Source: Coprinopsis marcescibilis
Taxonomy: Eukaryota > Basidiomycota > Agaricomycetes > Agaricales > Psathyrellaceae
DNA length: 64,000 nt
NCBI GenBank assembly: GCA_004369085.1
Contig: ML210201.1
Location: 1-64,000 of the forward strand
Reading direction: 5' to 3'
Shown here: one piece after another, positions 6,243 to 35,953 of the stretch
Layout: each line of letters begins with the position of its first letter
How positions within the stretch are numbered: position 1 is the stretch's first letter
Program-made: the position numbers and the translations under genes
Notes under the pieces: generated by a model
The model's database searches: none
Seen by the model: the letters and a program-made list of their open reading frames with translations, nothing else
Told to the model about the DNA's origin: nothing

Positions 6243-7160
6243 ACCCGTTCTTTGCTAAACTATACATTACTCATCTAATCTTTCACCTCGGTTTCGGAGC
6301 TTTATGTCGATGAAATTCACGGAATTCATGGAAGAATTCGTTGGAGCCGTGGCCACAAGCTTAAGCTTTGGTCTTGTTAGGCGCAATGGTCACGGTTATG
6401 ATACGCGAAGACGCCATTATTGCGTTCTCAGTTCACGGCGAGAGTATATATTCCCTGCCCCTCCGTGGCGATTACCTCTTTTCCCTTCATGTGTAATGAC
6501 CATCTATTCCCTACATCTCCAGGATCTGCACCGACCATTTTTGCTCACCTTGCGTTCACACAGGGGTTCGCTGACATTGAATTACCCCACGCTAGACCGT
6601 TCTCGGACCCGCCTGAAGCCCATTTATTCTGTATTCGAACCCAAACGATATTTCAACCCTCTTTTACAGCGCCGAACACGAATCTCCGGGTCTTTTGAGG
6701 TCGTTCTGATTATGCATCTGCTCACCTGAGGGAACACCGTCGCACGTGTTGCTTACCGATGGCCGTCCAACCAATTATGGTGGCTCGTTGGTGGCATGTT
6801 GGTAAGGTCCAGATCGCATCTATACCTCCCCAAAGGAAACATCGCCTTACCGTTTGGCCATTTTTAGATCCGAAGAACAGTTCCTGGCACTTGCGTGACG
6901 CATCGAAGGCCTCAGAGATTACAGCATTTATGGTTCTCCGTACACTCAGCCAGAGAGCCAGGGTCACTGCTTTGTTCTGATTGGCCCTCCTACTCTCGAA
7001 CTGGCTGACGTCATGTAATGCGTGACCTGGCGCTGGGGCCTGTCCATATAAGAACGGAACTGAGAGGGTGCTTTCTGGCTAAACCTGGAGCGGGCAACTC
7101 TCGATTCTGTCGCCCTTGTTTTCTCAGATTTTTCCTGCTTTTTCTTATACTGTCGTGACC
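6243..7160. other. Intergenic region and egt1 upstream sequence
   Basis: About 0.9 kb between the palmitoyltransferase stop and the egt1 start. Short open frames at 6304-6729 have no recognisable domain or splice logic, so I read them as noise. The final 200 bp look like the egt1 promoter, annotated separately. Confidence 0.5.
6980..7052 (+). promoter_or_regulatory. egt1 core promoter with CRE palindrome and TATA-like box
   Basis: A reverse CCAAT element (ATTGG) lies at 6980-6984. A perfect cAMP-response-type palindrome TGACGTCA lies at 7006-7013, and a TATA-like TATAAG at 7047-7052, about 110 bp before the egt1 ATG. TGACGTCA is the classical binding site of ATF/CREB-type bZIP factors such as fission yeast Atf1, which act in stress responses. 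Control of egt1 through it is inferred from position only. Confidence 0.5.
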
Positions 7161-10100
7161 ATGCCTGTCGAAATTATCGACGCCCATACTGCCTCGCAGG
7201 ATGGCATACCGACTTTTGACCTCTCAAAGCAGATTGTGGACGGACTTTCTCGGCCTGTGGGAGAGAAAGAGATGCCCACCATGTTGCTGTACGATGAGAG
7301 AGGATTGAGGTTGTACGACGACATCACGACCGCTGCCCCAGAGTACTATTTGTTCGGAGCTGAGGAGGAAATCTTGAAGAACCATGCCGATGAGATTGTC
7401 AGGAGCATGCATGGGCATCGCTCTGGGCATGGAAATCTCATAGACGAAGTCGTCCTAGAACTCGGTGCAGGGTATGTTACTTTCTTGGTAGCTTTTGGTC
7501 CCCGGCTCACCAGTCCACCCACCCAGTGCTTTACGCAAGACTTCTCATATTCTGCTCGGCCTCTCGCGCTATGTAGACGACTCGAAGACGACGTCTCCAA
7601 TCACATATTACGCCCTCGACCTTGAAAAGCGCGAACTGGAACGCACCCTGGGCGAAATTGAGGCCTCCGACATTGGACGCCGTCTTGATGGCAAGGTCGC
7701 AACAAAAGGCATATGCGGTACATACGACGACGGCCTCAAGTTTATCGAGAACGGCGGACTCGTCCAGGGCGATAGGGGCGGGTTCTCGTCTGCCTTCGTC
7801 GACGGTTTCAACGCCCGCGGCGGTTCACCAATCTCGAGTGACTCTTCAGAGAGCGATTCCGGCTCTGAACCTCCCAGCTCAGAGCCCTCGAGCGCGGCCG
7901 GATGCCAACCAGAACTTCTCCATATCATGTTCCTCGGCTCTTCGATAGGTAACTTCCCCCGGGAAGATGCAGCTTCATTCCTTCGTTCACTTCCATTACG
8001 ACCCGGTGTTGGCGATACGCTTTTGCTCGGCCTGGACCACGATAACGATAAAGGGAAGATAGAAGAAGCGTATAATGATCGCAATGGGTACACCAAGCGT
8101 TTCATTATGAACGGCCTCAAGAACGCCGGTCGGACTTTGGGCGATGACCATATGTTCGATGAAGACAAATGGGATTATGTGAACTATTACAATGCTGTAC
8201 GTTTGGATTGCCCACATTTTCGTGTCCCTGAAAGTTTACTGATCGTCGTTTCAATATAGGCTGAACGTGAGTTCTCAAGCGAGCGTTTCATTTGCCGAAC
8301 TGTTCTAACCTTTGACTCAGGGCGGCACGAAGCGTACTTCAGGTCCAATTGTTCTCAAACTATTACAGTTCTTTCCGACAAGAAGGAATTCACTTTCGTG
8401 GAGGACGAGATGCTCAAGATCGAGGAGTCTGTCAAGGCACGTCGTACTGTTGCAATAAGCTCCAGTTCATTCTAACTCGCAACACAGTACTCAGAAGTCG
8501 ATGCATACACCCTCTTCTCCAATGGCAACCTTCGACCTATCCAAAGGTGGACCGATAGCAATGGACAGTACTCCTTGTGGCTTTTGGAACGTCCACCGAT
8601 CAGCTTCCCCCTGTTGCATACCCCCGGGCCTGTAAAGCGAGTTGGACACACCGTTGAACCAGCCACACCATTCGGTTTCCCCGCTCGAGCGGAATGGGAA
8701 AATGTATGGGAGCTCTGGAATTTGGTCACACTGGGCATGATCCCACCATCGATGCTCCATGAAAAGCCGATCGATTTGAGGCATATCTGTCTCTTCTACT
8801 TTGGCCACATCCCGACCTTTTTGGATATACACTTGTCGAGATTGTTGAACGAGCCACACACAGAACCTGAGTCGTACAAGGTATGAGATTTCCGGTAATT
8901 CGTCTACAATTCGTTCTGACGTCGCGTTGTATAGTACATTTTTGAGGTTAGCGGAACATTTCAAACCTTCTTAATATGCTTGATTCTCAACCCGTTGATA
9001 GCGCGGTATTGACCCCGACGTCGAGGATCCCACACAATGCCATGTAAGCTTCATCGGAATTACCGCCTGACGGCTCCAGATTGACCCACCCCTAGCCTCA
9101 CTCTGAAGTACCGCAGGAGGAGGCGGACTGGCCAACCCTGAATGCCATCCTTCAATTCCAAGCACGAGTCCGACAGCGAGTCAGGAGACTGTATGACGAC
9201 TTGGAATCTGGGAGGGTCACCTTGACGCGCAGAATCGCACGCGTATTGTTCATGACCTTAGAACATGAAGCGATGCACGCTGAAACGTTGCTCTACATGC
9301 TGATCCAACGTGCAGGTAGCGGTACCCTTCCGCCAAGCGGCTTTACCGCTCCCCACTGGGAGTCTCTTGCGCAATCATGGGATGCCGCGCCTGTTCCGCA
9401 GGAGAAGACTATTCGTCTTGGTCCTGCTACGATTTCTCTAGGACATGATGACGATGAAGAAGAGGATTCCAGTGACACTGACCCTGCACATATTGCCCAA
9501 CACGAGTTTGGTTGGGACAACGAACATCCCAAGCGGGAACTTGTGGTCAAAGAATTTGCGATCGAGTGGAGGCCTGTCAGCAACGGCGAGTTCTATGCAT
9601 TCTACAGTGGGGAAGGGAAGGGCAAGATTGAGTTGCCAGCGAGCTGGGTCGCAGAGGATGGTGTCATGAAGGTGATTATTTTACCTCAATCCAATGCCCT
9701 GCCATCTAACTTCTAGACCTGATAGGTTCGAACGCTCTACGGTCCAGTTGACATGGAAATCGCCTATAACTGGCCTGTGATTACCTCTTACAATGATCTT
9801 TCTACCTATGCCACTGTGAAAGGAGGACGGCTTCCAACCGAACCAGAACTTCGATTGTTCTACGATAAGTTCGAAGCAGGGTACGAAGGAGGCGCGAACA
9901 CTGGCTTACGCAACTGGCACCCCGTTCCGTACGTCCGATTTTCAGCCTCTTCTTGGTCAAAGCGTTGACTTTTATGATTCCAGCGCGACCACCGGGCTGG
10001 CCAGAGGCCATGGAAGAGGGTCCAACGGAGGGGTGTGGGAGTGGACATCTACCACCCTCGACAAGGTTGACGGCTTCCGTCCTTCGAACTTATATCCAGG

Positions 10101-17898: not shown

Positions 17899-19413
17899 CG
17901 TGTTCTAATTTATAGACAATGTGCTTGTTATCCTCCTCTGTTTTTCCCCAAGGTCTAAATCTCCAGTTGCATAATGGCTGGTCTCGACCCAAAAGCTCTC
18001 CAAGAATTGCTTTCCCTGCGTTGAAAACGGCAGTGGGTTCAACAAGAATCTAAAATCATCCCAAAATCATGAGCTTCCATCAAGCTCCATGAAAGCAAAC
18101 ATTAGACATACCCAGTAAGTTAAAATCTTGAAGATGTCCGCGAGGGACACACCATTCCCGCCGTCTCCTTCAGAAGTAACATCAAGGGTGCAGACACCAA
18201 TGACAGTACTCTCCTTTCGGCTTAGTGAATCCCCAATGTGGACCCCAAATATCTGCGTTATCCCATCGCTGATACACCATGTGACACCTTCACTAGTGGC
18301 ATTGAGGTACGTCAGACATGCATGGAATACAGTCAACAATGCTACTCACCAGTTGAGCGACGGTATCATATACAGCTGCTTCTTCGCTACAACGTGAGAC
18401 TAGACGTCTATATTATAGTTTTCTCAGACATTTTGTTGATTCGTGAATGAAGGGCGAAGGCCCCAAGCCCTTGCATCTCCTGTATATTGAAGGATGGACC
18501 ACTTGTAAGCACGAGTGGTACGGAAAGGACAGGTGTATTTTCAAAGTGCTGCAGTATTAAGTCACAGGCGTCTGAGCGCAAAAGAAGATTGATTGCTGAT
18601 GCATATATATCGCAAAATCTGTGGGACATCAGTCCTTGGGAGTCCCATTAATGTAAGTACCTTTCGGCGCTAAATATGTCCTCTAAGTTTCACGGCACCA
18701 AGCCATATCTCTGAAGCATCCACAAGTTCAGGTTCAAGCTTGGGAGGCCCTCGTAGGAGCATCTCAACATTTTATCGAATTCTTTGTGCTTACGTGTTCC
18801 GCTAAAAATAATCACCTCTGCTGTCCATCTTCAAGCTGGTGATCGTATGTTAAAGGCTAACTCGCTGCAGATATAATGGGAGACGGTTAATGTATTCAAT
18901 GATTCATTAAAGTCCCTGTCAGAAAGCATGAAGTGCTACCTACAGCTCGGACTCACTAGAGCTTGACTCGAGGACTTTGCTTTGACGCGCATGGACTAAA
19001 GAGAGTGTTTCTCGCTGCACCGGCATACCCCGAAGTCTAAGTGCGCCGAGCTTGTCAACTCTTACGTTCAAGAACCTGGCGTTCAATTCTTTCCAGAGAC
19101 AGATTTACAGTTTGGATTTTTTACTGTACAATTAGTTACACTGCGAAATGGAGGAGACAATTGCAGCGAACAATGTATTAGTAAAGGAGCATCATTAGGG
19201 GCTTAGAAAATCGAAGGGTGTTTAAGGTAATTCCTAGTGAGCAAAAGGTCGAGTCGAGTTGGTGTTTGCGTGTTTGAATTTGATGCATATGATGATTAAG
19301 GCAGCTGTGAAAGAGAGCTTCGTCAGCATCAGTATAAGAGTGGAAATTCACATGATCCACGTACCATTAAGTTATGAGAGTGTCGGCTAGTCAGGCTGCG
19401 TGCCATGGGGCAC
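17899..19413. other. Intergenic region with possible decayed gene
   Basis: About 1.5 kb. Minus-strand open segments at 18067-18339 and 18408-18629 may be exons of one gene and are listed separately. The stretch 18640-19400 shows nothing I can support. Confidence 0.4.
18067..18629 (-). CDS. Unrecognised protein, possible multi-exon gene or remnant
   Basis: Two open segments on the minus strand read like real protein: MSHRFCDIYASAINLLL with LTSGPSFNIQEMQGLGAFAL, and CISDGITQIFGVHIGDSLS with GVCTLDVTSEGDGGNGVSL. They can be linked by introns GTCTGA...TTGTAG and GTGAGT...CACTAG with a small exon between. The end after ILTYW is unclear because a further donor (GTATGT) leads into sequence where I find no clear last exon. 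I assign no function. It may be a degraded gene next to the duplicated pheromone-like block. Confidence 0.3.
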
Positions 19414-19587
19414 CTAGGCAATAACGCAGTAAGAAGTGGAACCACCACCTCCGCCTGTCTCGAAGTCGGAGGGTGCATCAACGACGGGGCGCTGAGCGAT
19501 AACGCAGTAGGATGTTGAGCCGCTGCCTCCGCCGGTCTCTTGGTTGGTGGGGGTGTCGATGGTAGGGAGGACGATGAAGGAATCCAT
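19414..19587 (-). CDS. Pheromone-like CaaX precursor 1 (two internal units)
   Basis: Intronless 57-residue precursor. It begins MDSFIVLPTIDTPTNQ and ends in the CaaX box CVIA directly before the stop, as in farnesylated fungal mating pheromones. Two related units are visible: ETGGGSGSTSYCVIA at residues 17-31 and ETGGGGGSTSYCVIA at 43-57, joined by a spacer QRPVVDAPSDF. Only the C-terminal CVIA can be prenylated directly. An internal CVIA would first need a cut after its alanine. The MDSF start and glycine-rich unit match the basidiomycete pheromone family (Pfam PF08015) as I know it. The TATA-like ATTATATA at 19671-19678 lies 84 bp upstream. An alternative is a secreted or intracellular prenylated peptide outside mating. 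Confidence 0.85.
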   Translation of the reverse strand: MDSFIVLPTIDTPTNQETGGGSGSTSYCVIAQRPVVDAPSDFETGGGGGSTSYCVIA

Positions 19588-20544
19588 TGCGAGGTGGTAG
19601 TGGTAGTGGTAGAGGACTTTGATTTGATTTAGCTCTGAAGAACTGAGGAATCTCCCTCAAAGGGTGCCGGATTATATACTCCTGCAACCCCACACTTTTG
19701 AGATTAACACTTCATAAATCGCCGATCGGTGAACATGAGATGGGCGGCGCCTACGTTATCCACCCTAGCCGTCATCATGATCCATCGTTATTGTTCGGAT
19801 TATTTGGTAGTACTTTGTGGATTGCGCACGCTGGATACTAATCTGGATGGCCTTGCAAGTGTTTACAGAGAGTAATTGTTAGATGCGGGTACTGTGAAGA
19901 CCCGGCCGCTAAGTCCGTTTGAATTGCTATTGTATTTCGGTGCGATTCCCGGTGGAGCACAATTGGCCATGGCCGTTTGCCGGCATTCACAATAAGATGA
20001 AGACCGAGTATGTGAGACTGGAGGTGGTGAGCATTTAATTCAGTTTGTATTCCTTGCACCCGCGTTTAGCGCCGTTTACTTTTTGTTGCGGGAACGCGGA
20101 TCGATCCCTGGACGTGCGAATCCATCGCTCTCAAGTTGGTCATGTTAGTTTTTATACAAGGATTCAGAGTCGTAAGGCCCTCCTCGTGAGTACATACAGC
20201 ATACGTCAGTAGAGTGTAGAATAAGAGTATACTGCTAATACTGAATTCATCTGCTCCAATGGACCAGCGGGAATTCTGTCTCCAACTTGGCGTGGATCGC
20301 AACCTTGCTCTCAATGAGCGCCTAATCGATACATCCGACAAATAGCGTCTCACCAATGGTCATGGTCAGGCCAACGCACGAGTAAAATAAAAAGCGAGGT
20401 CTATAGTGTGTCATACAGGACAAAAAGCTCTCCCGGAGCTTGGGACGCTGCCAACCAAGTCACAATGGTCACTTCCGTATATGATAGCTAACCAAAGCTG
20501 TGCACATGCCACGCGACGCCCTTGCACTGTACCGACGATCGAGC
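19588..20544. other. Spacer between pheromone-like copies
   Basis: Contains the upstream region of precursor 1. A minus-strand open segment at 20066-20356 has no recognisable domain, and alternative frames there carry stops, so I do not call a gene. It may hold an older decayed copy that I cannot align. Confidence 0.4.
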
Positions 20545-20937
20545 TAGAGCTACCGTATGTTGACCGCGATAGGCTACGCAACTATGTAGTCATATGCCCT
20601 TTATGGGGCTGAGCTTTCCAAGACGCTTCTTATGTTACAGATGGGTTCCATAAATTTCTCAATTACGATCCGAACCACTGGCGGTACAGCTACGCCATTA
20701 CAACAAGTATGTAACCGATTATATTAAAGGGCACTATTTTGAGAAGGTCGAAGGGGGTATATGGATGTGGCTTTAAGGCAGGAGCTGATATGGTTGGAGT
20801 GGATGTTGGAATTAAGGCAGTCTAATCTGCAGCGGGAGAGAATCAGCAATGATGTCGCAATCAAATATTGCGGATTGCACTCACCGTTTCATAGCTGTCA
20901 GCCAACGCGTATGAGTACGCTGTGTGCCTATACTCAC

Positions 20938-21111
20938 TTAAGCGATGACGCAGTAGGAAGGGGAGCCGCTTCCAGGTTTACCGCTCTCGAAGTTGGCGGG
21001 GGCATCAACGACGGGGTGTTGGGCGATGATGCAGTAAGAGGTCGAGCCGCTAGGGTTACCGGACTCTTCGTTGGTGGGGGTATCGATGGGGAGAGTGATG
21101 AAGGAGTCCAT
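20938..21111 (-). CDS. Pheromone-like CaaX precursor 2 (two diverged units)
   Basis: Intronless 57-residue precursor beginning MDSFITLPIDTPTNE. The first unit ESGNPSGSTSYCIIA ends at residue 30 and the second ESGKPGSGSPSYCVIA ends at the C-terminus, with QHPVVDAPANF between. The two units differ from each other and from those of precursors 1 and 3 in the stretch before the cysteine. That is where receptor specificity is set in basidiomycete pheromones. A TATAAAG box at 21169-21175 lies about 58 bp upstream, at the same distance as in precursor 3. It sits in duplication unit A. Confidence 0.87.
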   Translation of the reverse strand: MDSFITLPIDTPTNEESGNPSGSTSYCIIAQHPVVDAPANFESGKPGSGSPSYCVIA

Positions 21112-21854
21112 TATTGCTTTGTACTAGATTGGAAATCTGGAGATACGCAGAGGCCAAAACCGAAGGGACTTTATACCCGAGGGTGTCGCTTTCGGTTGCA
21201 GTTGACAAAAAGGACTACTTGCTTGCCCAAAGACCGCAGCTACCACTCATCTATTGTACGAGAAATCAGTGGTCTTAGCCAACCAGTCCAAAAAAGCATG
21301 TAGGAATGACCATGACGGAGCTGGGACTGACAGAAACTTGTGCAAGTTGTTCCCGGTTTGTCCGCTTCAATTGTATCGACCTTGTCAGGAAGAGGTGAAG
21401 GTGGCCCTTTTACTTTCTCGTATCGTCCCAATTAAGGCTTGATGTGGTCGACCCAGGACCGCTGTACGGAAGGATTCATTCCAGGATCGCGGATTCAGCC
21501 ATTCTGGTCTTTTGACCGGTGCGATTCGGGCGCTTAAGACCCATCTGACGCTAAGTGGTCCAAACTCAGTCGTTCGATCGATTGCATATGCATGCAACGG
21601 TTGGATCACCACAAAGTCCGCCAACTGACTGACCACAAACTCTGACAAGAGCCAGGCATTCGGGTGTTGACACCATTTCACTACTGTGAATAGAAAATCG
21701 CTTTATCAAAAGGTCGTGTTACAAATATCCGAGCCTAAAAGCTAAAAGAATTTGAGGGGTGAAGATCGAAGTGGTCATAACAGCTAGACAGGCTCACCAC
21801 GAGGGAAATGGCCTCCTCGGTGGGTTGTGTGTGGTGATTGCAGCTTGTGGCTTG

Positions 21855-22025
21855 TCAGGCGGTACCGCAGAAAAACATAGAGCCGTTTCTTCCGCCGGTC
21901 TCGAAGTCGAAGGGATTATCGACGAGTAAGGGTTAAGAGACAACAAGTAGGACTTTGAGCTGTCGCTGACGGCGATCTCTTGTTTCGGTCAGTGAGAATC
22001 CATGATGACAGTGAAAGGACTCCAT
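21855..22025 (-). pseudogene. Decayed pheromone-like precursor copy A
   Basis: Aligned with the intact copies by position in the duplicated block. The start reads MESF, but the following sequence is shifted and meets stops before the second unit. The last stretch is still legible as FETGGRNGS and ends in CGTA instead of CVIA, keeping the prenylatable cysteine position. A TATAAAA at 22061-22067 survives upstream. I infer loss of function from frameshift and stop codons. Confidence 0.75.
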
Positions 22026-22570
22026 TTCAAAGAGCGGGGGTGGTAGAAGCCAAGGACCGTTTTTATAGGACATAGCGAAGACCCAAAAGATAATAGCTGA
22101 GCTAGGGACATCTGGGGTGCCGCTAGCGCCTATTCAATACACCTGATCGCAACTCGCAGGATGTCGCCTTCCCAGCTGTAGTTGACCGAAAGCTCTGCTT
22201 GGCCCGGGTTGAGTTACCGTATGTTGACCGCTCTGATAAGTATTCATAGGCAAAACTCATGGGGCTAAGCTGCTTCTTGTGTTGGATTTCATAAATTCTC
22301 AATTACGATCTGAACCAGTACAACTGCGCCATTACAATAATAATAGATAGCCGATTATATCAAAGGGGGTATGGTGAGAAGTTCGAAGGGGGTATATGGT
22401 CGTGGTGCAGGCAGGAGCTGTAGTAGCCGAATCTTGAGAATGGGTGTTGGGACTAGGACAGTCTGCAGCGGAAGAGACTCAGGAACGATGTCACAACCAA
22501 CTATCACGGATAAAACTCACTGTTAATAAGAACTGCCCGGCCAACGAGTACGCTGTGGGACCGTACTCAT

Positions 22571-22741
22571 TTAAGCAATGACGCAGTAGGAAGTGCCACC
22601 GCTACCACCGCCGGTCTCGAAGTTGGCGGGGGCATCAACGACGGGGCGTTGGGCGATGACGCAGTAAGAAGTACCACCGCTGCCACCGCCGGTCTCTTCG
22701 TTGGTGGGGGTATCAATGGGGAGGGTGATGAAGGAGTCCAT
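22571..22741 (-). CDS. Pheromone-like CaaX precursor 3 (two identical units)
   Basis: Intronless 56-residue precursor. After MDSFITLPIDTPTNE the unit ETGGGSGGTSYCVIA occurs twice without any difference (residues 16-30 and 42-56), separated by QRPVVDAPANF. The end is CVIA followed by a TAA stop. Perfect identity of the two units contrasts with precursor 2 and suggests recent homogenisation within the gene or selection for one mature peptide in two doses. A TATAAAA box at 22799-22805 lies inside a short palindrome (GGGGTATAAAATCCCC), 58 bp before the start. It lies in duplication unit B. Confidence 0.88.
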   Translation of the reverse strand: MDSFITLPIDTPTNEETGGGSGGTSYCVIAQRPVVDAPANFETGGGSGGTSYCVIA

Positions 22742-22798
22742 GAGTGCCTTGTGTTAGATTAAAAATCTGGAGAGACGTAGAGGTCGAAACTGCGGGGA

Positions 22799-22805
22799 TT
22801 TTATA
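22799..22805 (-). promoter_or_regulatory. TATA box of precursor 3
   Basis: TATAAAA flanked by GGGG and CCCC on the minus strand, 58 bp upstream of the start codon. Precursor 2 has TATAAAG at 21169-21175 at the same distance, and precursor 1 has a TATA-like box at 19671-19678. Confidence 0.65.
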
Positions 22806-23759
22806 CCCCGAGGGGTGCCATTTTCGGCATAGTGGGCGACAAAAAGATGGTACTACTTGCTTGCTGAGAGACCTCTGCTGCCACCCAGCTATTATCAGCG
22901 GCGTTAGGCGTTTCGTCCATAAAATGTAAGTAGCAATGATCGTGGATTGGAGGGCAGGGGAAGTGACAGAAATCTGTGCAAGTTGCCCCGGTTTGTCCGC
23001 TTCAATTGTATCGACCTTGTCAGAGATAAGTCAAGAAGGTCCTACACTTTCTCAGATTCTCGCACTCACAAATGCGTTGTATTTGGTTAGGACCGCTTTA
23101 CAGAGGTCTCCATTCCGGAATCGTATTCGATCATTTTGTCCTCGGTGGGTGCGGGCGCTTAAGACCCATCTGGTGCCAAACGGTCCAAAATCTACGCGAA
23201 AATCTGCCCTGTCTTTCGATCGATTTACATCTGCACGAAGTAGGCTCCATTTCTTGGATCACCACACAGTCAGACGTCTCAAAACAGTGGCATTTAGTGG
23301 CATGCCGTTCTGGGAGGTATATCGCTGGCAATGCCAGTGTCGATCTCACCCACGGACTTAGTACCTGCAGATTCAGACCCGAGAAAAGGCATTCGGGTGT
23401 TGGCACACCGCCGCATTACTGTGAATTGCAAACTGGTTTATTAATAGCCTACTACAAATACCCGAGCCCAAAAAGCTAGATCAGAGCGGAAACGTTGGCA
23501 AAAGCGCGTTTTGGAGCGTGAAGATCGAAGGGGGTACTGTCGGTCACGTCATTCAAAGAGAGAGACGTCGAAAGAGATATGCTGCTGTTGCTGGCCGAGC
23601 ATCTCGCTTATGGTCTTACATGATCAAAAGGACACTTCTGAAAGAAGAGAAGTAAGACAAAGGTCATCGCTCTGAGTTGGTGGCCATAAAAGCTGTAGAT
23701 TTCACTTACCATTGGGAAGCCTGCCTCTTCGGCGGATTGCGCGCCGTGAACGCAGCTCG

Positions 23760-23931
23760 TCAGGCAATAACGCAGTAAGAAATGGAACCGTTTCTTCCGC
23801 CGGTCTCGAAGTCAGGCGTCATTATCGACAACCCAGTAGGGATTTCGAACCGTTGCTGACCCCGGTCTCTTGTTTCAAGGTTAGTGGGAATTTCTATGGT
23901 GAGAAATACCGTTTACAGCGAGGGAATCCAT
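23760..23931 (-). pseudogene. Decayed pheromone-like precursor copy B with intact last unit
   Basis: Starts MDSLAV and then meets a stop, unless a short GTAAAC...CATAG intron is used. The first unit has lost its CaaX segment and runs into stops. The last unit is still intact: FETGGRNGSISYCVIA followed by a stop. The upstream TATA is altered to TATAGAT. It is most likely a pseudogene, although an unusual start or splice could still express the last unit. Confidence 0.7.
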
Positions 23932-24553
23932 TTCAGTGAGCGAGTGTGGTAGAAACCTTACTATCAAGGACCGTATCTATAGGACATAGTGAAGGCTGTA
24001 CGGCCGCCGGAAGACAATAGCTGAGCTAGGGACATCAGGGGTGCCGCTTTGCCTGGTCCTTGCTCCTCTGTGGTTTGCCTCAGGGCCCAAAGGTCAATTC
24101 ACCGGGGTCCCCGTCTTTATTGAAGGGGGGCAACAATTTGATCTTGGCTCTCGTTTGGCTCGATGTAAGAGGGAATAGACCTCTGAGAAGGAGATAAGAG
24201 TATACTCACATCAGTGCTTTCGCCTAGCCCTCCTCAGTCCTGGAATTTACAAAAGCTCCACTGCTGGTCGTAAACCGGCCAAATCTTGTTGAAAGTATCA
24301 GGATTCATTTGCAATCGTATCTTCCTGGGGTTAGTCTGATCAAGGGCTTTTTACCTGAAAGTAGTCAGTGGGAAACCACCCAGAAATAACCGACTAGTGT
24401 CATTCTGTCGGGCAGTGACAAAGATGAGCTGAAGTGCGTGGTGCGAAAGATTACCGTGGTTGCCTAGGGGAGTGAGATCAAGTCAGGTCGTTGGTCCAGG
24501 ACTCGGAATCAAGGAGATCAGGACCGCTTTGAATGGAAGCCGCCTTGGGCACT

Positions 24554-24902
24554 GGACGACTTTCCACGGAGGTTTAGAATCCTAGATTATTTTCTAAACG
24601 AGCCCTGCCGAAAAGCCGAACGTCTTGGCTGCCCTTTGGGGAAAGGCAAAGGCTCCGCTGTCACTGCAGACCCCATTCTAAATCCTGACTCTAGACGAGG
24701 GTCCCCTACCCCCTCTCCAGACTCAGACGCACTTTCTAAACGAGATTTNNNNNNNNNNGGGCGGCCGACGAGTCTGAGATGGTTTATCTCTTCCTCCTAG
24801 ATGTGTCGGTGGTTTAGAACAGATATTCTAAATTCGCATTCAAAGTCCGACATCAGCCATTTAGAAATAATCTAGGATCCTAAACACGGTGGAAAGTCGT
24901 CC
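24554..24902. mobile_element. Foldback/MITE-like element with assembly gap inside
   Basis: Terminal inverted repeats of about 45 bp: the left end begins GGACGACTTTCCAC and the right end is its complement, both continuing into a TTTAG-ATCCTAGATTATT-like segment with few mismatches. Flanking ACT at 24551-24553 and 24903-24905 could be a 3-bp target duplication. No transposase is visible. The interior is cut by ten Ns, so its true length is unknown. Confidence 0.7.
24749..24758. other. Assembly gap (10 N)
   Basis: Ten Ns inside the foldback element. This is a placeholder length, and assembly probably failed because of the inverted repeats. Confidence 0.98.
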
Positions 24903-25979
24903 ACTCATCCCTGTCATCGCATGTTTGTTGGCGAAGCAACTCTAACTTACGGTAGATGTCGAAACCACATGGACCTCGAGTGTCGGGTCAATGATCGGTG
25001 GATGAGGACGACATTATTGAAAGGAATATCAGATATCGGGACAAGAATTGCCGAACTCTAAGGATTGCAAGAGATCAGAGCACCCAGAGTGCGAGCACCA
25101 TCCTTCGATAGCATGCAGATTTCCTGAAGAAGATCGTTGGGGTATGATTCTGTGAACCGGCACTCCCTTACCTCCACAAGGCACGGACCATGTTTCTCTG
25201 TGAAAATCTGTCCGCGCTTCAGAGTCAGATGCCTTGAGGTGTTCGCAACAGATGGAATGCAGATGTATGTCAGTGGCAGTTACTTGAGTCCGCACTAGCA
25301 GGAGACTCAAGGCTCTGCAGGAGATGTCCAACCAGTGCTGCTTGAGATCATGATTCAGAGCAAATATGGAACTGTCACACCGTTACGCCGCTTCCAAGCA
25401 GACCAGAAATTCGACATATCCATGGACTTTGGACCTAGGGAAGACCTATTACAAGCTCACCGTGAATACATAAGATTTTAAGGGAAAAACCTGCGGCAGT
25501 TTCAAGGAAAAATAATGGCAAGAGAAGGCGTTGTGGGATAAAAAAAAAAGGATTGTGTGACGGAGCGTGACAACGGCGGCGGTTGACAACAACAAGACCA
25601 CAACACAACAATATTGGGGCCACATCATCCTGCCATCTTGTCTAGCTTTTACCGTCGTAATCGCTACTCGTCGCAGACAATTCCTCTGCTCGTCGTGCTC
25701 AACGTCGACCAACACCGTTTCTACTAGACCGGCAGGCTCCGCTGGTCTCGTCTAGAACACTCGCAGTACACAGTCGACGCACACAGGGTCTACACCCCGC
25801 CGTCCTTTGAACAGCTTGTTTCTAGTTCGTCCAAAGACTCGACGTCCAGGACCAAATTTCACAGCCAACAGCACCAACAATCTTCGACAGCATCGTCTTT
25901 TCAACTTATCGCTTGCGGAACACCCAATTTTCACATTTTCACCCACATCAATATCTTCATTTTTGTAACTACTCTCAAT

Positions 25980-34586: not shown

Positions 34587-35774
34587 CTAACTGCCTACCT
34601 TGACAGACTCCTCGATTTTAATCATCTCATCTTCAAAGAAACTGAATTCTTTCTTATCTGAAGGAACCGTAATCGTCTGCGAGCATTTGGACCGGTAGTA
34701 TGACTCATGGCACCCTGGGTCAAAGTTTAATGGGTTGTTCAGCGAATGTAGCGCTCGTCGAAGCTCACGTTCAGCCTACATTCCGTCGACGCGTCAGCCA
34801 GGTTCCAGGGACATGACATGGAATATGACCCAGCAACGTACGTAAGTGTAAATGTTTATGTATTCCCATTTATCTTCGTTGAATAAGCTGTCATCCCCTA
34901 AAGTTCGACCAGCGTTCTTGAGGGCGTTCATCTTGAAGCGCTTGGTATACCCCTTGCAATCATTGTACGCCCTTTCTATCTTTTCCTTGTCGTTATCGTG
35001 GTCCAGGCCGAGCAAAAGCGTATCGCCAGCGCCAGGGCGCAACGGCAGGGAACGAAGAAATGGAGCTGCATCCTTACGGGGGAAGTTGCCGATTGACGAA
35101 CCGAGGAATATTATGTGAAGTGGGACACTAGATGCTGGGGAACCGCCGCGACTCGACGATAGCGCAACCCTACCACCATGTACGAGTCCACCGTTCTCGA
35201 TAAACTTGATACCATCGTCGTATGTACCCCACATCCCCTTTATGAGAACCTTGCCGTCCAGACGGCGCCCAATGTCTGAGGCTTCTATTTCGCCCAGGGT
35301 GCGTTCGAGCTCGCGCTTCTCAAGGTCTAGGGCGTAGTATGTGATGGGAGACGCCATCTTCGAATCGTCTACATATCGAGAGAGGCCGAGGAGAATATGA
35401 GAGGTCTTGCGCAAAGAACTGGGTAGAAAGATGAGAAGGAACACAGAGTGCGCGAAGGGAGGTAAATACCCTGAGCCAAGTTCCAAGACGACTTCATCTG
35501 CGGGATTTTCATCATCAGAGCGATTTCGATGCATGCTCCCCACAATCTCATCTGCGTGGGTCTTCAATATTTCCTCCTCCGCCGCAAATAAGTAGTACTC
35601 TGTGGCAGAGGTTGTGATATCGTCGTACAGCCTCAACCCTTTCTCATCATAGAGCAGCATGGTAGGTATCTCTTTTTCACCTGTAGGACGCGAGAGCCCA
35701 TCGATGACCTGCTTCGAGAGGTCTATCGAGATCGGTATGCCGCCTGCATGGATATCGATAATGTCGACTGGCAT
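34587..35774 (-). CDS. Partial Egt1 paralogue: stand-alone EgtD-like histidine methyltransferase
   Basis: A diverged copy of the first part of egt1, about 27 kb away and inverted. It starts MPVDIIDIHAGG, parallel to MPVEIIDAHTAS in Egt1. It keeps LLYDEKGLRLYDDI, the SAM motif LELGSGSLRKT across the same intron, FLGSSIGNFPRKD and, after two more conserved introns, RSKCSQTITVPSDKKEF and IEESVK. It then reads VGS and stops, because the intron that follows this point in egt1 is not joined to further exons. The iron-site domain, the FGE-like domain and the last methyltransferase strands (KYSEVDAY onward) are absent. The serine-rich insert of Egt1 is also absent. It may make hercynine only, be regulatory, or be dying. 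An in-frame ATG at 35828 would add 18 residues. Confidence 0.83.
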
Positions 35775-35953
35775 AGTTGGCAGAAACGAAAAGTGAGAAT
35801 CCGGACTTTGGGACTTCGGTGAATCCAAGTGTCGGAGGGTAAATCACGACTGAGTAGAATCTCCGTTTTGAACCGGCGAGTCTTCAATATATCATCCAGA
35901 AATCTACTCTACGAACCTAAAAGGTCCAGCTGGCTAAGTCAGCTTTCTTTAAA

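Follow-up and report, generated by a model that had tools for sequence, protein, structure and literature searches.

Two-unit pheromone-like CaaX precursors in Coprinopsis marcescibilis and other mushrooms have matched cores and a conserved residue after a buried CaaX box

Results

Two-unit precursor genes in the window

The stretch of DNA analysed here, positions 1-64000 of contig C56 in the 36.3 Mb genome of Coprinopsis marcescibilis (Agaricales, Psathyrellaceae) (the window), contains three intact genes for pheromone-like precursors that hold two CaaX units in one chain (Table 1). Each is an uninterrupted open reading frame (ORF) on the minus strand that begins with MDSF and ends in CVIA, and each encodes, in addition to this terminal unit, an inner unit whose own box, CVIA or CIIA, is buried in the chain and followed by QRPVVDAP or QHPVVDAP. 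These genes had been predicted, together with two decayed copies, from the window sequence alone (the original prediction), and the ORFs and three-frame translations bear out both the count of three intact and two decayed genes and the presence of the inner units. The MDSF start and CVIA end that were ascribed to all five hold for the intact genes, whereas the decayed copies start with MESF and MDSL and the first of them ends in CGTA; neither decayed copy contains the inner CVIA or CIIA in any of the three frames read. The assignment to pheromone-like precursors stood up to a check against PF08015, in which all three intact proteins passed the cut-off of 22 bits with two matching stretches in each. 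None of the three public protein entries found was marked as coming from the window, although one may be concealed by clustering at 90% identity.

Table 1 Two-unit CaaX precursor genes, their boxes and decayed copies in the window. Coordinates of the decayed copies are approximate, their ends having been counted by hand from the translated frames.
Feature	Position	Strand	Evidence
Two-unit CaaX precursor, 57 aa; internal core ETGGGSGSTSYC, terminal core ETGGGGGSTSYC	19414..19587	-	ORF; PF08015 40.4 bits; codons
Internal CVIA box of gene 19414, then QRP	19495..19506	-	Sequence and translation
Terminal CVIA box of gene 19414	19417..19428	-	Sequence and translation
Two-unit CaaX precursor, 57 aa; unlike cores ESGNPSGSTSYC / SGKPGSGSPSYC	20938..21111	-	ORF; PF08015 29.2 bits; codons
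Internal CIIA box of gene 20938, then QHP	21022..21033	-	Sequence and translation
Terminal CVIA box of gene 20938	20941..20952	-	Sequence and translation
Two-unit CaaX precursor, 56 aa; ETGGGSGGTSYC is both cores	22571..22741	-	ORF; PF08015 35.0 bits; codons
Internal CVIA box of gene 22571, then QRP	22652..22663	-	Sequence and translation
Terminal CVIA box of gene 22571	22574..22585	-	Sequence and translation
Decayed copy: MESF start, internal stop, CGTA end	~21855..22025	-	Three-frame translation; DNA match to other decayed copy
Decayed copy: MDSL start, broken frame, FETGGRNGSISYCVIA end	~23760..23931	-	Three-frame translation; weak genome-search match, E 0.03

The family in the C. marcescibilis genome

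A whole-genome search with one of the precursors returned 17 matches, comprising 14 two-unit genes, two single-unit genes (C37:151201 and C16:157717) and one of the decayed window copies. The two-unit genes are distributed over contigs C56 (six), C47 (three), C176 (two) and C132, C216 and C141 (one each), and all 14 encode a short precursor with an MDxF start and a C-terminal CaaX box. Their E values in this search, 3e-33 to 1e-15, and the PF08015 scores establish that the two-unit genes are not a chance pattern. A quick genome search with PF08015 missed them and returned three single-unit genes (C86:19036, C210:313 and C210:4046), and a scan of the window and the fetched loci disclosed no further MDxF CaaX genes.

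Several of the genes lie on duplicated segments. Window positions 19049-20101 and C56:80944-81991 are inverted duplicates with one precursor on each, and their 84.6% similarity extends beyond the coding part; C56:64649-67280 matches C47:4961-7602 at 86.5%, and similar duplicated segments link C176 with C132. A TATA-like box is present at -130 to -45 in all 16 loci (the 14 two-unit genes and the two single-unit genes found with the precursor). Mononucleotide shuffles gave 2.3 on average and never more than 8 of 16; the loci are related gene copies and hence not independent. A loose intron pattern in the 3' untranslated region (3'UTR) was seen in seven of the 16; a 3'UTR intron has been reported for Agaricus bisporus.

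The single-unit genes on C37 and C16 share their cores with two-unit precursors. The C37 precursor ends in ETGGGSGSTSYC-TIA, which is the internal, not the terminal, core of gene 19414 and of copy 81462, and it differs from these two at 5 and 6 of 12 codons, respectively. The core of the C16 precursor, ETGGSRGSTSYC, is that of both units in the C132, C176 and C216 genes and of the internal unit in the C141 gene.

STE3 matches were found by genome search on contigs C24, C40 and C210 only. None of the 14 two-unit genes shares a contig with a detected STE3 match, in contrast to the position beside STE3 that marks B (P/R) mating-type pheromone genes, and a link of the two-unit genes to a receptor locus was rejected because these matches lie on other contigs. 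The single-unit genes on C210, by contrast, are of the mating-type kind by position, because an STE3 match lies on that contig. The STE3-like match at C24:906-1972 has stop codons within the matched frames and is perhaps a decayed receptor or contains introns.

Relatives in other fungi

Alignment searches covered 5.8 billion proteins and scored about 8,000 candidates each, one of them being represented by the best 120 of its 127 matches. Internal CaaX repeats, which the original prediction had suggested looking for in agaricomycete proteomes, proved to be numerous: at least 107 unique two-unit precursors were found, 14 of them from C. marcescibilis and many from unnamed metagenomes. The full set of 150 sequences (136 database proteins and the 14 genes described above) comprises 111 two-unit precursors (107 unique), 29 with a terminal box only and 10 without a recognised end box. 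Since both boxes had to read C-[VIT]-[VIT] to pass the filter, this share of box conservation is built in, and as the relatives were retrieved with two-unit profiles the two-unit share is no natural frequency.

Among the matches listed, two-unit relatives occur in Coprinellus, Candolleomyces, Ephemerocybe, Hypholoma, Hebeloma, Gymnopilus, Pholiota, Lyophyllum, Collybia, Tricholoma, Tricholomella, Termitomyces, Dendrothele and Mycena, fourteen genera of Agaricales, and in Punctularia (Corticiales); the Coprinopsis cinerea entries listed, P0042, P0047 and P0130, are single-unit. Three of the 29 sequences set aside are two-unit-like, P0079 lacking the MDxF start and P0041 and P0109 carrying serine in place of the internal cysteine. 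The 10 without an end box include four that extend beyond the terminal box (P0006, P0060, P0088 and P0117), four with a broken terminal unit (P0105, P0110, P0112 and P0133), one that ends in CAIA (P0073) and a gene model that overextends the C16 single-unit gene (P0048). Only 16 of 29 aligned relatives matched PF08015 at E 0.01 or better. A distinct subfamily, comprising P0106, P0113, P0114 and P0119 from Mycena and the metagenome sequences P0103 and P0120, has an internal CVVC followed by KED and serine instead of tyrosine before each cysteine.

The two units match and change together

Across the 107 unique precursors, the ten residues preceding the internal and the terminal cysteine show an identity of 0.875 within a precursor and 0.41 between precursors, a within-precursor value reached in none of 10,000 permutations. 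The cores are identical in 55 precursors, and in a set thinned to 37 sequences below 60% identity the corresponding values are 0.884 and 0.373. The flank upstream of the core has an identity of just 0.376 and is thus not homogenised. When a precursor's own second unit was compared with the best first-unit match in other precursors it was closer in 51 cases, equal in 31 and further in 25. Co-variation was assessed in 49 disjoint closest pairs (98 of the 107 sequences), in which 137 sites have changed in unit 1 and 148 in unit 2; 112 of these sites are shared, compared with 58 expected, and 83 of the 112 carry the same residues in both units.

Selection on the cores was examined within C. marcescibilis. 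The 12-residue cores are identical in nine of the 14 genes, differ by one residue in three, gene 19414 among them, and have diverged in two, 20938 and C141. In 12 genes the cores can be aligned free of gaps and major changes, and here the paired cores of a gene are different at 46% of synonymous sites (pS 0.46) and 3.6% of nonsynonymous sites (pN 0.036), a pattern that argues against an unselected internal unit. Between paralogues the nonsynonymous to synonymous ratio (dN/dS), from 19 of 91 gene pairs (18 for the leader) picked by subfamily and not independent, is 0.08 for the internal core, 0.12 for the terminal core, 0.12 for the leader, 0.17 for the spacer, 0.31 for the internal aaX and 0.20 for the terminal aaX. 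Thus, constraint on the internal core is at least equal to that on the terminal core.

A conserved residue follows the internal box

The fourth residue of the internal box is A in 52 precursors, F in 37, S in 7, T in 5, C in 5 and P in 1, and where it is F, A (32) or S (5) comes next. The residue directly after the box is K in 34 precursors, Q in 30, R in 24, H in 16, A in 2 and D in 1. K, R, H or Q therefore occupies 104 of 107 junctions, and 36 of 37 in the set thinned to below 60% identity, compared with 4% at the other spacer positions. K and R make up 41 of the 42 junctions in the F and C classes, and Q and H 45 of the 65 in the remaining classes. The distance between the units ranges from 16 to 32 residues.

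Other features of the window

A small inverted-repeat-like element at 24553-24903, with arms of 21-22 nt about 0.3 kb apart, adjoins the second decayed copy and contains a 10-N gap at 24749-24758. The window also carries two related histidine-specific methyltransferase genes (PF10017), at 7083-7622 (+) and 34797-35843 (-), which lie in opposite orientation about 27 kb apart.

Discussion

The precursors described here combine a two-unit design, constraint on both cores, co-variation of the units and a conserved junction residue. CaaX prenylation requires a free C-terminus, and the buried box therefore implies a cut before prenylation if the internal unit is to mature. Three fates of the double unit had been put forward in the original prediction: two peptides released by a cut, a relic of duplication, or recognition of the double unit as a whole. 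The first appears best supported, both by the junction residue and by the single-unit gene that encodes the internal core of gene 19414, the third is improbable and the second is contradicted by core selection and co-variation. We consider it probable that the precursor is cut after the internal box to yield two lipopeptides that are the same or nearly the same, and that these genes are a two-copy member of the mushroom pheromone-like CaaX family. The preference for K, R, H or Q lies exactly where a cut must free a CaaX end, and this is the main sequence argument for cleavage.

In the proposed pathway an endoprotease would act before prenylation, at the conserved K/R/H/Q or next to it, cutting the chain just past the internal C-a-a-[A/S/T/C] or C-V-V-F-[A/S] and thereby creating a second CaaX end. 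Both halves would then undergo farnesylation, aaX removal, carboxymethylation, N-terminal trimming before the Gly-rich core and export, such that each precursor would supply two peptides of about 11-12 residues, alike or almost so, and one STE3-type receptor would probably be served by both. From these sequence patterns we infer the cut and the protease behind it, the prenylation of the internal unit, the resulting product, its receptor and its biological role. The prenyltransferase, ICMT, M48 N-terminal domain and Rce1-like families, which could carry out the later steps, all have matches in the genome; they are general families, three of which have matches in some of the prokaryotic controls as well.

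Several observations sit less comfortably with this pathway. The internal box is CVVF in 37 of 107 precursors rather than ending in A, S or T, and among the six precursor regions constraint is weakest at the internal aaX. P0041 and P0109 have lost the internal cysteine, the cores have diverged in two of the 14 C. marcescibilis genes, and in 25 of the 107 precursors a first unit from elsewhere resembles unit 1 more closely than does the precursor's own second unit. In addition, the Q or H found at 46 of 107 junctions is unlike a plain trypsin or Kex2 site; processing by plain Kex2 or trypsin was rejected on this ground.

It could be argued that the terminal unit alone matures and that gene conversion or repeated re-duplication keeps the internal unit similar to it, without a product of its own. 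Indeed, the subfamily on C47 and at C56:65-67 kb shows just two or three synonymous differences between cores, and gene conversion or recent re-duplication may have acted there; species other than C. marcescibilis were compared as proteins only, where conversion remains compatible with the matching of units. The cores of the C132, C176, C216 and C56:19414 genes, however, are preserved despite 4 to 9.5 synonymous differences over about 10 sites, the flank next to the core has not been homogenised, and conversion gives no reason for the junction residue to be kept. We therefore regard this explanation as unlikely.

Alternatively, the double unit could be a single bivalent product, trimmed ahead of the first core and singly farnesylated. 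The terminal box is the sole free CaaX end unless the chain is cut again, and equal cores would fit a bivalent ligand. Such a joined product would, however, need neither the conserved junction residue nor the C-V/I-V/I form that all 107 internal boxes display (in part imposed by the filter), and the spacing of its units would vary from 16 to 32 residues. The single-unit genes on C37 and C16, which encode the same cores in the same genome, lend support to separate peptides, and we rate a bivalent product as having little chance of being correct.

That the internal unit is a duplication relic under no selection is very improbable: the two decayed copies prove that copies can decay and the internal cysteine is lost in P0041 and P0109, but the internal core is constrained no more weakly than the terminal one, the units co-vary, and in the C141 gene (C141:48189-48362) it is the terminal core that has changed while the internal core is canonical, the reverse of a decaying internal relic. 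Equally remote is splicing that drops one unit to leave a single-unit product per gene; the repeat, at about 78 nt, is of a length fitting for a short fungal intron and loose in-frame GT...AG candidates occur in eight of 14 genes, but a strict in-frame GTRNGT...AG intron over the internal box occurs in none, and the public gene models P0001 and P0002 span both units. At the sequence level, then, the genes do not appear to end at the first CVIA, and we reject the splicing out of one unit.

The tandem design is not without precedent. The rhodotorucine precursor has a lysine after every internal CTVA box, and rhodotorucine A and RHA precursors hold more than two units. The mushroom family shares with rhodotorucine-type tandem precursors the presence of at least two near-identical units and internal CaaX-like boxes. 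The premise of the original prediction, that basidiomycete precursors give one peptide from the C-terminus, was incomplete: as far as the passages found of the papers cited here extend, tandem CaaX design is already known from red yeasts, Microbotryum, rusts and ascomycetes. In red yeasts, the tandem precursors of rhodotorucine A (PMC3068285) and tandem RHA2 (PMC3236058) resemble the family in placing tandem units and CaaX-like spacers in one chain, but they belong to another phylum branch, have an unrelated core and are mating-type genes. MFA1 of cereal rusts has three repeats, and Microbotryum and ascomycete tandem precursors are mentioned with it (PMC10977897); these too are CaaX precursors with tandem pheromone repeats but, unlike the mushroom genes, rust MFA1 and Microbotryum have three mutually different repeats and linkage to a mating receptor. 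Among ascomycetes, Trichoderma reesei hpp1 has three copies (PMC3068285) and Verticillium dahliae Ppg2 five repeats, with Lys and Asn beside internal CaaX-like boxes as putative processing residues (PMC11077750). Both likewise repeat CaaX-type motifs within one short precursor, but differ in the number of repeats and, for hpp1, in Kex2 sites, none of which is conserved in the mushroom family. The design shared with RHA or MFA1 may be convergent.

The family also resembles the non-mating-type pheromone-like precursors described in passages on Agaricomycetes, such as C. cinerea GGGSGNGAYC and Laccaria bicolor GGGSGNNAYC (PMC8305134), which share the MDSF start, the Gly-rich core ending in YC, the CVVA/CVIA/CTIA-type end and the lack of an adjacent receptor. 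C. cinerea P0042 and P0047 also have NEETGGG and DFETGGG flanks in common with the two-unit family, but contain one unit, whereas the C. marcescibilis family has two, with a buried box and a K/R/H/Q junction. By sequence, the two-unit genes thus seem to be of the non-mating-type kind. Two-unit precursors in Agaricales are not described in the titles and abstracts found, which come mostly from non-subscription literature and leave absence unproven; nor do these, or the passages found, describe the two-unit state of the mushroom family, its spread, the matching of units or the junction rule.

No enzyme for a pre-prenylation cut is named in the literature passages found. Tentatively, mushrooms may possess a dedicated pre-prenylation endoprotease that recognises C-V-V-[A/S/T/C] or C-V-V-F-[A/S] with K/R/H/Q behind it and, by cutting there, makes new CaaX ends and two matched lipopeptides per chain; tandem pheromones in red yeasts, rusts and ascomycetes might be processed by the same activity. 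With 107 natural variants, a sharp junction rule and a genus in which laboratory genetics is available, the putative cut becomes testable. The strong selection for an exact core in these little-understood mushroom pheromone-like peptides argues for a receptor and a role.

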